From positions 1 through 63,202 of IMG/VR virus record IMGVR_UViG_3300030329_003706: DNA of 63,202 bases, one strand, 5' to 3'. Below the pieces are notes generated by a model that saw nothing but the letters and a program-made list of their open reading frames with translations, was not told the DNA's origin and did not search any database. This DNA is from a virus. A program made the position numbers and the translations under genes. Position 1 is the stretch's first letter; the number at the start of each line of letters is the position of its first letter. Shown here one piece after another: positions 9,969-45,189 of the stretch.

Positions 9969-10595
9969 TTAAGCTTCATATCCATATAATTCTATTAGCA
10001 ACTTACCTGCTGTGTAATCAGCATTTGTTGTAGCACCTAGAGTTAGATACAAGTATGAATCTGCCGCAGGAACGGCTGATAAAATAACAACACTACCTAG
10101 TGATGCGTCACCTGCATTAACCAATAAAGTTTCTGTCAAATCTGAGATAGCCCCATCTTCAACACCTGTTGCTTCAGTTGCAGAATGAATATTGATATCT
10201 GGGTCACCACCTGCAGGAGCTTCAAAACAAGTCATTCTGCCTGCAAGTATAGTTCCGTTTCTCGCGGCGGTTATCTGCCCAATGTGACAAGCATTAGATG
10301 TACCATCAACACCAATAATGTCGCCACTAGCTGTTGATCTTAGTCCTGTAAGGTCAATTAGGATACTTGTGGTAATAATACCACCTGACCTAAGAACCGA
10401 ACTTTTGTAAATAGTACCTGTACCACCTGTGATACCTGTACCTGCTTCTGTAGCCATTGTATTAGCATCAAGCGAAGTAAAGCCTGCAGATGAAATGGAC
10501 ATTTGTGTTGTTTCTGCACCTGTAGATGTGGCTGTAGCTATTGAAGAGTAGCCTCCCTCAGATCGTAAAGTGCCTTTAAATGTAGTATTAGCCAT
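9969..10595 (-). CDS. Virion structural protein, 208 aa
   Basis: It begins MANTTFKGTLRSEGGYSSI and continues as a low-complexity beta-rich protein with GDPDINIHSATEATG near residue 128. It follows the major capsid gene across a terminator (10664-10694), so it may depend partly on read-through. An 8-bp inverted repeat (10623-10641, caatcaca/tgtgattg) lies in its leader. The minus strand there also carries TTGACA, so a local promoter or operator is possible. Probable capsid decoration protein. Confidence 0.6.
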   Translation of the reverse strand: MANTTFKGTLRSEGGYSSIATATSTGAETTQMSISSAGFTSLDANTMATEAGTGITGGTGTIYKSSVLRSGGIITTSILIDLTGLRSTASGDIIGVDGTSNACHIGQITAARNGTILAGRMTCFEAPAGGDPDINIHSATEATGVEDGAISDLTETLLVNAGDASLGSVVILSAVPAADSYLYLTLGATTNADYTAGKLLIELYGYEA

Positions 10596-10663
10596 GTTTT
10601 ATCTCCTTGTCTTGGCTGTTGTCAATCACACCATGTGATTGTCAAGGTTATTAAACTGTACAT

Positions 10664-23735: not shown

Positions 23736-24170
23736 TTATTTTCCTAGTACCCACTGATGATCACTTAAATCATCAACACTAATAACTGCTAACTTAGTGT
23801 ACTCTTTCATTGAGCCTTCTGGTATTTGGTAAAAATCAATTTCTATGTTTATTCCCTCAAGCCCTCCGTCTTGGGTAGGTACATAATACTCAAAGCTAAA
23901 CCAATGATCTAATTTAGCAGACTTGCTCCTTAACTCATTTAATCCCTGAATGAACGAAGCAGTGGTTGTCGCCTTTTCCGTATTATAACATTTTTTAGGA
24001 CCTCTAAGGTTTTGGCTTATGACTTCATCTACTGCACTAAAAGCGACTTTTTGAATAAGCTTTTCCTCAGGGTTAATTGTGTCCTTAGGTTTTGTATAAT
24101 AGGGCAGATTTGGATACATGTACTGTAACCATCCATCCCAAACATCAAAATGTTTTAAATCAACTTGCAT
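23736..24170 (-). CDS. Hypothetical protein, 144 aa
   Basis: Mixed alpha/beta protein starting MQVDLKHFDVWDGWLQYMYP, with LEGINIEIDFYQIPEGSMKE in the C-terminal part. No family recognised. Expressed from the promoter at 24211-24249 with AGAAAGGAATCGTGTT before ATG. Confidence 0.65.
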   Translation of the reverse strand: MQVDLKHFDVWDGWLQYMYPNLPYYTKPKDTINPEEKLIQKVAFSAVDEVISQNLRGPKKCYNTEKATTTASFIQGLNELRSKSAKLDHWFSFEYYVPTQDGGLEGINIEIDFYQIPEGSMKEYTKLAVISVDDLSDHQWVLGK

Positions 24171-24210
24171 AACACGATTCCTTTCTATGACTGTGTTTTG
24201 TTATACTTCA

Positions 24211-24796: not shown

Positions 24797-24883
24797 TTTG
24801 TTACTCCTCCTCCGAGCTGATGGGATACTTTGTATAATAGGGCAGATTTCAAATCATGTTAATTTTTATTTTATCAAAATTAA

Positions 24884-25040
24884 TTTTCGCGTAGACCCGA
24901 AAGTTACTGTCTAGATATTGAATTCTTGGTCATTGTTCCCTGCTAAGTTATTGTAGATATGGGGATACTGAGATATTGTATATTATCAATTCTTAAAAAA
25001 CAAATTTACTCTCATCCGTATTTCACTCCTATATAGCAAA
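24884..25040 (-). promoter_or_regulatory. Control region, copy A (three conserved blocks)
   Basis: Minus-strand order: TTGCTATATAGGAGTGAAAT at 25039-25020 within a 22-base identity; ATACAATATCT near 24981-24971; a second CAATATCT just before the last block; and CTTTCGGGTCTACGCGAAAA at 24903-24884 within a 21-base identity. The same blocks occur at 45021-45118, 20 kb away. CTTTCG/CGAAAA form a small inverted repeat. It lies directly upstream of TerS and after the early-region terminator. Probably a leftward late promoter or regulator-binding region. Confidence 0.6.
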
Positions 25041-25138
25041 CTGGTTATAGAGCCGTGTAAAGTGGTCAAAAATTTTTGGGCTACTGTGGGGTATTAAGGG
25101 GGGCTTGAGTTAGTCGAGTGGCGTCGGAAATGGGGCTT

Positions 25139-25180
25139 AAAAAAAGAGACCCCCTACCGTTTGGGTGTTCGGGTAGGGGG
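25139..25180 (-). terminator. Intrinsic terminator of the early region
   Basis: Nine-bp stem CCCCCTACC/GGTAGGGGG (25150-25158 with 25172-25180), followed on the minus strand by TCTC and seven T residues. It ends the long leftward early transcript after the gene at 25217-25516. Bases 25041-25138 hold no gene. Confidence 0.9.
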
Positions 25181-25216
25181 TGAAGTGGGAGGAATATTAT
25201 CATGAAGATAAACTAT

Positions 25217-27275: not shown

Positions 27276-27388
27276 GTGCTCTCCTTTCTAAAAAGCGTTT
27301 GTTGGTGTGAGGCGTAAGATTCGCTCGCAACTGATTCTCTTACTTTAATAATAGTACCTAGGACTGCGAGTATTAACCCCACTAATAA

Positions 27389-27425
27389 ATATTACTACAG
27401 CATTTGTCGTATGATAAGTCTTATT
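27389..27425 (-). promoter_or_regulatory. Leftward promoter of the AATAAGAC family
   Basis: AATAAGACTTATCA (27425-27412), a 17-bp spacer, then TAATAT (27394-27389). The TAA stop of the MazG-like gene lies inside the motif. Confidence 0.8.
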
Positions 27426-27816
27426 TGTTCTTGTATTTTCTTAAAACGCCCTCAATATCAGGAGGTTTGTAGCTTGGTCCTTTGAGTATTTTGCCATCTT
27501 TACGATAAATAGGTTTTCCCTCGTCATCAAGTTTTGACATATTGCTTTTATGAACTTCTGTGAATAATGGATCAAGGTCTATGCCAAAAGAGTGACCAAT
27601 CCCGTAAACAACATATAGTAAATCGGTTAAGCCATCAGCAATACCTATTATATCTTTTTCTGCTAGTGCTTTATAGAACTCTGCTAATTCTTCCTCTAGC
27701 AATAGCATACCAAGTTTTGAGGTATCTTCATCAGGAAAGGTTGGTGTGTCGTGGACTTTATGCCCGAAAGTCTTCATAAATATTTTTACTTTCCCAGAGT
27801 TTGAAAAACCTGTCAT
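27421..27816 (-). CDS. MazG-like/PRA-PH nucleotide pyrophosphohydrolase
   Basis: A 131-residue all-alpha protein. LLLEEELAEFYKAL (residues 38-51) supplies the metal-binding ExxE, and DGLTDLLYVVYG (61-72) supplies the second acidic motif. EVHKSNMSKLD and GKILKGPSYKPPD near the C-terminus are typical of the phage PRA-PH branch. It hydrolyses NTPs/dNTPs or related alarmone-like nucleotides; in phages it is thought to adjust host nucleotide signalling. Confidence 0.85.
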   Translation of the reverse strand: MTGFSNSGKVKIFMKTFGHKVHDTPTFPDEDTSKLGMLLLEEELAEFYKALAEKDIIGIADGLTDLLYVVYGIGHSFGIDLDPLFTEVHKSNMSKLDDEGKPIYRKDGKILKGPSYKPPDIEGVLRKYKNK

Positions 27817-30325: not shown

Positions 30326-30733
30326 TCAATACTCCGATGGCAGGAAGAATACTGTACGTTCTCCACTTTTCTGCATATAAAATTTCCATGTTCCAGGAAA
30401 AGCGTCAGTAAACTCGATTTCACGCTCAAAAAGGGTAGGACTAGTAGCATCGTTCCCATCACTGGCAGTGATTATTGCTTTTTTGTCCTTTACATAAAGA
30501 AACACAACTAAGAAATCATGTTTTTCCATTAGTGGAGCAATTTCGGTAGCGACTATGTCGTTAAACCAATAGGCTCCCCCACTACACTTTTCAAAGAAGT
30601 AACGTGTCCCATCAGTGTAGCAATAGTTATGGACTAAGGGGTGTTTGAAATATTGACTTGTTCCAGTAAACATGTTCAAATTTTGCATAAACTCGTTCAC
30701 CTTAGGATCCTGAAGATTAATTACGTTGTTCAT
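30326..30733 (-). CDS. DUF6876-like conserved phage protein, 135 aa
   Basis: Contains HPLVHNYCYTDGTRYFFEKC, then GAYWFNDIVATEIAP. The pattern Y-T-D-G-x-x-Y-x-x-E then A-Y-W-x-x-D is one I associate with DUF6876. Function unknown. RBS AGAAAGGAGGAATAA. Confidence 0.55.
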   Translation of the reverse strand: MNNVINLQDPKVNEFMQNLNMFTGTSQYFKHPLVHNYCYTDGTRYFFEKCSGGAYWFNDIVATEIAPLMEKHDFLVVFLYVKDKKAIITASDGNDATSPTLFEREIEFTDAFPGTWKFYMQKSGERTVFFLPSEY

Positions 30734-30763
30734 TTATTCCTCCTTTCTATAAGGAATTAAGTT

Positions 30764-30903
30764 AAAAAACAAAGAGCAGAGGCAAAAATGTTTAGTGGTA
30801 TAGAAAAACATTGTGAAAATAACACCTCTGCTCCAACAGATTTGGGTAGAACTTTTCAAGCTAAACGCAAACTCAACCAGAAAGGAATGTTCTACCCAAG
30901 CCT
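30764..30903 (-). ncRNA. Candidate small RNA 1 (two hairpins, about 140 nt)
   Basis: Lies between a family promoter (30910-30946) and T-rich sequence. Stem one: 11 bp, 30842-30852 with 30889-30899. Stem two: 9 bp, 30774-30782 with 30825-30833, with an inner 7-bp stem (30787-30793 with 30806-30812), followed by TTTGTTTTTT. No ribosome-bound ORF on the minus strand. The loop of stem one carries ATTCCTTTCT, complementary to the AGAAAGGA leaders of many genes here and similar to the 16S 3' end. It could also be the long leader of the gene at 30326-30733. Confidence 0.5.
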
Positions 30904-30909
30904 AGTATA

Positions 30910-30946
30910 AGAATAACAAATAAAAGCATCGTTGATAAGTCTTATT
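30910..30946 (-). promoter_or_regulatory. Leftward promoter of the AATAAGAC family
   Basis: AATAAGACTTATCA (30946-30933), a 17-bp spacer, then TATTCT (30915-30910). Drives candidate small RNA 1 and possibly the genes below it. Confidence 0.8.
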
Positions 30947-30964
30947 TGTTCTTATTTATTCCGC

Positions 30965-31135
30965 TAAAAAGAGGGGAGCAAAAGTAGAAAGGAATGTTAA
31001 AACTATGCAAATTAACAGATTTGCTCCCCAAGTGAGCAGTAATTGGAGATTAAAAGCCCTCAAAGTTTAAGAAAGCTACTTTCGTGTCCACCAACGAAAA
31101 ACTCTTCCTTTAACTAACCGTGCTTTTAATTCACA
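30965..31135 (-). ncRNA. Candidate small RNA 2 (about 170 nt)
   Basis: Starts after the promoter at 31141-31177 and ends at a perfect 10-bp stem, GGGGAGCAAA/TTTGCTCCCC (30973-30982 with 31020-31029), followed by TCTTTTT. No ATG occurs in a usable minus-strand frame. The 37-nt loop holds AACATTCCTTTCT and AAATCTGTT; both sequences are also in candidate small RNA 1, in reverse order. Probably a regulatory RNA; the plus strand alternatively encodes only a 21-codon frame. Confidence 0.55.
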
Positions 31136-31140
31136 CTATA

Positions 31141-31177
31141 AATAATACACTATTTTTTATCTATGATAAGTCTTATT
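31141..31177 (-). promoter_or_regulatory. Leftward promoter of the AATAAGAC family
   Basis: AATAAGACTTATCA (31177-31164), a 16- to 17-bp spacer, then TATTAT (31147-31142). Confidence 0.78.
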
Positions 31178-31182
31178 TGCTC

Positions 31183-31389
31183 TTATTTATTCTTCCAAGT
31201 AGAACCTATTAAGAATCCACACTCTGCACAAGAAATACCTCCTTCTTGTTTGGGCTTTTCTTCCTCTGTCACAAGGTGAAAAACATTACTCCCACAAAGA
31301 GAACACATTAAAACTCTCACTTGTTTTTCTTCTACGGTAGGTTTAGTCTCTCTCCTGAAGGGGATTACATTACTTTTTTGCTTTTCCAT
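31183..31389 (-). CDS. Small zinc-ribbon protein, 68 aa
   Basis: CSLCGSN and CAECGF, spaced about 25 residues apart, form a four-cysteine zinc ribbon after a basic N-terminus (VIPFRRETKP). Similar small ribbons are common in phage early regions. Function unknown. Confidence 0.7.
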   Translation of the reverse strand: MEKQKSNVIPFRRETKPTVEEKQVRVLMCSLCGSNVFHLVTEEEKPKQEGGISCAECGFLIGSTWKNK

Positions 31390-38579: not shown

Positions 38580-38601
38580 ACTTCTCCCTTTCTATGAAGT
38601 G

Positions 38602-44865: not shown

Positions 44866-44891
44866 GTCTTTCTCCACATGTTGGTTTATTC

Positions 44892-44929
44892 GTTATAGCA
44901 TATATTGTACTAACAGCGTTAGTCTTATT
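44892..44929 (-). promoter_or_regulatory. Leftward promoter, divergent member of the AATAAGAC family
   Basis: AATAAGACTAACGC (44929-44916), then TATAAC (44897-44892) after 18 bp. The -35 half departs from the family. It starts the early operon; bases 44930-45020 hold no gene. Confidence 0.55.
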
Positions 44930-45020
44930 TAGTCATTTTTACTCCGCTATATTTAATATATACAACTTTGCTTATTACAGGGTAAAACCCATTGAAAGAA
45001 AACACTTTTTTTATCTTTTG

Positions 45021-45118
45021 TTTTCGCGTAGACCCGAAAGTAGCTATCAGATATTGTATATCGGAGAAAGTTAAAATTTGAATTAACAGTAATTTATATT
45101 TCACTCCTATATAGCAAA
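45021..45118 (-). promoter_or_regulatory. Control region, copy B (three conserved blocks)
   Basis: Same blocks and orientation as 24884-25040: TTGCTATATAGGAGTGAAAT at 45117-45098, ATACAATATCT at 45059-45049 and CTTTCGGGTCTACGCGAAAA at 45040-45021. It lacks the roughly 60-base insertion of copy A. Located between the early operon and the rightward SNF2 gene. Confidence 0.6.
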
Positions 45119-45189
45119 GTTAGGCTGATAACAAAAGATTAGTCCTGTTTTTGTTTTTGTGCTATTTATAAAAGTAACAGCAAACTGTA

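Follow-up and report, generated by a model that had tools for sequence, protein, structure and literature searches.

What does a phage keep in a stretch of DNA that holds no convincing gene? The virus record studied here, analysed at its full length of 63,202 bases (the window), encodes a family A DNA polymerase, a primase, a helicase and a portal protein, with nearly all genes on the minus strand. The polymerase shares 56% identity with that of phage 023Pt_psg01 from seawater, 55% with that of phage DSL-LC04 and 52% with that of Pelagibacter phage HTVC023P; among genome contigs the sole lead was a distant polymerase, in a Planctomycetaceae MAG, which was not informative about the host. A sequence-only reading had described a stretch without a convincing gene, and this was borne out between the CxxC-pair gene and the DUF6876 gene (Table 1). 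A tRNA scan of the region found none and Rfam at the gathering threshold placed no family in it; sub-threshold Rfam matches were taken as chance. Elsewhere in the window (10593-10647, minus strand), Rfam matched Mu-gpT-DE RNA at 58.5 bits. Judged by sequence and predicted structure, this DNA phage, which comes from an environmental sample, probably produces a pair of short, structured RNAs exposing one and the same sequence that could cover the Shine-Dalgarno (SD) sequences of its own genes. As candidate small RNAs (sRNAs), the two units, each running from promoter through hairpins to terminator and exposing an anti-SD segment, are well supported by these predictions.

Table 1 Features of the two-unit region and its flanking genes
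Feature	Position	Strand	Basis or remark
Upstream gene, CxxC pairs (by eye)	31183..31389	-	Conserved neighbour in relatives
Unit 1 promoter, family repeat AAATAAGAGCAAATAAGACTTATC, -35 TTATCA, 16 nt, -10 TATTAT	31142..31188	-	Repeat at 31188-31165
Unit 1 candidate sRNA, about 170 nt with inferred ends	30966..31136	-	Fold z -2.76; promoter, and hairpin with T-run
Unit 1 long 5' hairpin, imperfect (arms of 37 nt with 70% complementarity)	31049..31130	-	Inverted-repeat search and fold
Unit 1 second shared motif AAATCTGTT	31014..31022	-	Sequence match
Unit 1 anti-SD motif AACATTCCTTTCT	30986..30998	-	UUCCUUUCU unpaired, predicted probability 0.98-1
Unit 1 terminator-like hairpin GGGGAGCAAA/TTTGCTCCCC, 10 bp, 37-nt loop, then TCTTTTT	30966..31029	-	Inverted repeat
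Unit 2 promoter, family repeat AAATAAGAACAAATAAGACTTATC, -35 TTATCA, 17 nt, weak -10 TATTCT	30910..30957	-	Repeat at 30957-30934
Unit 2 candidate sRNA, about 140 nt with inferred ends	30764..30903	-	Fold z -5.15
Unit 2 5' hairpin TTGGGTAGAAC/GTTCTACCCAA	30842..30899	-	Inverted repeat and fold
Unit 2 anti-SD motif AACATTCCTTTCT, in hairpin loop	30879..30891	-	UUCC mostly open, UUUC mostly paired (predicted)
Second shared motif of unit 2, AAATCTGTT, separating its two hairpins	30835..30843	-	Sequence match
Unit 2 terminator-like hairpin GAGCAGAGG/CCTCTGCTC, 9 bp, 42-nt loop, then TTTGTTTTTT	30764..30833	-	Inverted repeat
SD hairpin ATTCCTT-ATAGAAAG-GAGGAAT, leader of the DUF6876 gene	30736..30757	-	May be a target in cis or in trans
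Downstream gene, DUF6876 family (PF21781)	30326..30733	-	Adjoins the region in relatives too (conserved)

An intrinsically terminated, trans-acting sRNA should have a promoter of its own, and here both units are supplied with one by a promoter-like repeat family of six or more members, six of which were counted in the window at up to three mismatches, all on the minus strand, where shuffles gave an expectation of 0. The two family promoters noticed earlier are present. The unit 1 promoter matches 9 of 12 sigma-70-type bases, and that of unit 2 is a weak match (about 8 of 12 by eye) with a weak -10. Among the relatives, for which 80 IMG/VR loci formed the comparison set, the same repeat also lies upstream of genes, mostly 40-100 nt before the predicted gene start.

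The inverted repeats of 11, 9 and 10 bp that had been reported were all recovered on the minus strand. Their description as ending in T-runs holds for each unit, through its 9- or 10-bp stem, but not for each hairpin, the 11-bp stem being without a T-run; this latter stem, in the 5' hairpin of unit 2, is the core of 14 nt paired at 93%. Both units close with a terminator-like hairpin and a U tract. The loops of these two hairpins are unusually long, and the hairpins went unlisted in a simple terminator scan, which was restricted to short loops. None of 200 shuffles folded as well as unit 2 and one of 200 as well as unit 1; in a coarser folding scan of the minus strand, other stretches of the window scored above the two-unit region. 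Another long structured leader, without an anti-SD, follows a family promoter at 27276-27432 (minus strand), and in one relative (L015, 4726-4850) a leader hairpin after a family promoter, GGGTAGCAAATCTG, resembles the 5' arm of unit 1 in 13 of 14 bases. A non-coding region at 24797-25216, before a probable terminase small subunit gene and cos-like by position, contains TTTGCTATATAGGAGTGAAATA, ATACAATATCT and ACTTTCGGGTCTACGCGAAAA; it is partly repeated near 45 kb (44866-45120), and unit 1 contains, on the plus strand (31078-31108), a fragment of the last of these elements.

Both units were said to carry AACATTCCTTTCT and AAATCTGTT in different order, and both motifs are indeed there with their order swapped. 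Exact copies of the first occur nowhere else in the whole window, and the second has no further copy on the minus strand. Of 2000 shuffled unit pairs, 10 had a 13-mer in common and 702 a 9-mer, which makes the first motif significant and the second, alone, not. The stems around the identical anti-SD motif differ between the units, and the motif falls in unpaired regions of the predicted hairpins, in unit 2 only partly so.

The exposed segment is complementary to SD leaders of the phage, as had been proposed for CCTTTCT and AGAAAGG: UUCCUUUCU can pair with AGAAAGGA, a word with ten minus-strand copies, almost all of them immediately ahead of a start codon. In unit 1, CTTTCTAC is the exact complement of GTAGAAAG, and the match continued only in the leader at 24186 (AGAAAGGAATCGTGTT). 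The best-extended site was AGAAAGGAAT, in the leader of the gene at 23736-24170. Duplex energies of -11 kcal/mol or lower were predicted for 49% of leaders versus 30% of random sites, only a moderate preference for the candidate target leaders.

We next considered the form in which these SDs are presented. Leaders of the phage group often read stem-NNAGAAAG-stem, with the SD inside an 8-base hairpin loop. Among 515 unique contexts, 33% had at least four pairs exactly at this octaloop register and 21% at one neighbouring register, all others staying below 10%. Pairing at positions 1-4 exceeded every one of 300 shuffles and involved several pair types, indicating covariation, with the qualification that the contexts are related sequences and the shuffle result is no formal probability. 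Four window leaders (at 38593, 30748, 29372 and 22303) have an SD octaloop with at least four pairs, and octaloops with covarying stems also occur across the relatives L007-L086. The covarying SD octaloop may be a natural partner of the candidate anti-SD RNAs.

The reading we favour, to which we give a little less than an even chance, is that the units encode two trans-acting anti-SD sRNAs, each with its own promoter and terminator, that repress several phage and perhaps also host mRNAs. For each RNA, a copy of the phage's promoter family would drive minus-strand transcription and an intrinsic terminator of its own would end it, with UUCCUUUCU placed at or in a hairpin loop. This segment would pair with the AGAAAGGA SD of phage leaders, often within the 8-base loop, and so block 30S binding and repress translation of several phage mRNAs in trans. 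Of the two roles suggested earlier, silencing in trans stands as the best mechanism, and titration of ribosomes is less likely because the pairing partner of an anti-SD RNA is the mRNA leader and not the 16S tail, which the RNA itself resembles.

Homologues of unit 1 or unit 2 were absent from the IMG/VR viral collection, a DNA-level search of phage records returned no match, and none was confirmed with the DUF6876 protein as bait; a looser unit pattern gave 41 matches, about the number estimated to occur by chance. In most relatives the same place is occupied by a different small gene or by a short spacer. In the L037/L038/L039/L055 group a non-coding hairpin stands there, and its 3' side bears TCCTTTACCTTTCTG. 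A different leader has a hairpin in six relatives, located close to the expected start site and showing TCCTTTC in the loop; its version in L034 and L035 has diverged, and the insert is missing from L013, L019 and L033. The alignment of this hairpin comprises only seven sequences, of which six are closely similar; in it 94% of the outer-stem pairs are kept, three pairs show compensatory changes on both sides, and TCCTTT is invariant while the interior has diverged. L060 provides a further anti-SD hairpin upstream of a gene's SD. Family-wide, TCCTTTC fell in strong hairpins in 6 of 32 cases versus 53 of 833 in permutations, a modest excess (p 0.017, at a hairpin-score threshold picked after seeing the data), and word counts in family leaders were only modestly raised.

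Several candidate parallels were discarded. The CCTTTCT of terminator loops in L018 and L034 gives way to CCCTTTT in relatives and was considered coincidence, and GTCCTTTACCTTTCTGTA in other contigs lies in unrelated sequence. Short AACAGATTT matches had raised an antisense origin from the 60-aa gene that fills this gap in relatives; the profile search gave no plus-strand match here.

The relatives' hairpins precede a gene's own SD without a terminator between, and this makes a cis role a serious rival to trans silencing. In that case unit 2 (and, by read-through, unit 1) would serve the DUF6876 gene as its 5' leader: the anti-SD loop of the unit would pair with the gene's SD hairpin loop, and the terminator would work as an attenuator. 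The arrangement is seen in the L018, L034, L037 and L060 groups, where the hairpins come after a promoter wherever one was found, and from unit 2 to the DUF6876 start there is no additional family promoter. However, both window units close with terminator-like hairpins, and a leader needs no two units with separate promoters; we consider the cis role rather unlikely. A wider scheme, in which the phage group uses an RNA switch for translation, with SDs in 8-base loops meeting cis or free anti-SD hairpins through loop-loop contacts, strikes us as doubtful.

It is also unlikely that the units are ordinary promoter-terminator spacers or mRNA-stabilising 5' hairpins whose loop motifs are a functionless local duplication. 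Such an origin would fit the lack of conservation in relatives, the weak family enrichment and the structured leader hairpins without anti-SD elsewhere (window 27432, L015, L023), but simple duplication does not explain why only two short motifs are common, in swapped order and with differing stems, nor why the shared word matches the SD complement. The anti-SD might instead cover host mRNAs during infection: the phage SD suggests a host 16S tail with CCUUUCU, and host mRNAs may share the site. The presence of that same site in phage leaders argues against a host-directed role, which we judge very unlikely. Most improbable of all are small proteins, from the plus-strand frame at 30788-30910 (40 aa) or from minus-strand frames of 35-41 aa. 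A simple codon score rates the plus frame like some small genes, yet it runs opposite to the operon without a family-type SD, and the minus frames start at TTG without an SD. Conservation of plus-strand frames as protein, which the sequence-only reading had named among the findings to set against its RNAs, did not emerge, 30788-30910 having no homologue in phage records.

Trans-acting anti-SD RNAs, the reading we prefer, have parallels in bacteria. NfeR1 of the alphaproteobacterial alpha-r14 family (rhizobia, cuckoo-related) covers SDs with its anti-SD hairpins and thereby represses; it likewise presents one identical, redundant anti-SD motif unpaired in hairpins with differing stems (PMC10746234). 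It differs in having three hairpins in one RNA and the motif CCUCCUCCC, which is absent from the units; here there would be two separate, phage-encoded RNAs with AACAUUCCUUUCU and a putative repressive action. No match to the alpha-r14/NfeR1 cuckoo type, by homology or by Rfam at the gathering score, was found in the region, and since the motif also differs we do not claim membership of alpha-r14. In predicted architecture, the two candidate sRNAs resemble alpha-r14/NfeR1 and may be a phage counterpart of a known type of bacterial regulator. The csRNAs of streptococci (CiaRH regulon) likewise comprise several sRNAs that resemble one another and leave a complement of SDs unpaired, whereas most of them carry an AUG complement too, the stretch lies between two stem-loops, and host and promoter are others (PMC3091779). 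Among phage sRNAs, sar, c4, PAK_P4as15 and STnc6030 have been proposed, or in some cases demonstrated, to silence phage mRNA through base pairing; the reviewed examples mostly have one target each, and these four act on specific mRNAs (ant, endolysin, tailspike gene), whereas the generic anti-SD seen here could reach many leaders (PMC12197685). Matched to a structured SD across leaders, such an RNA could time the translation of many phage genes at once.
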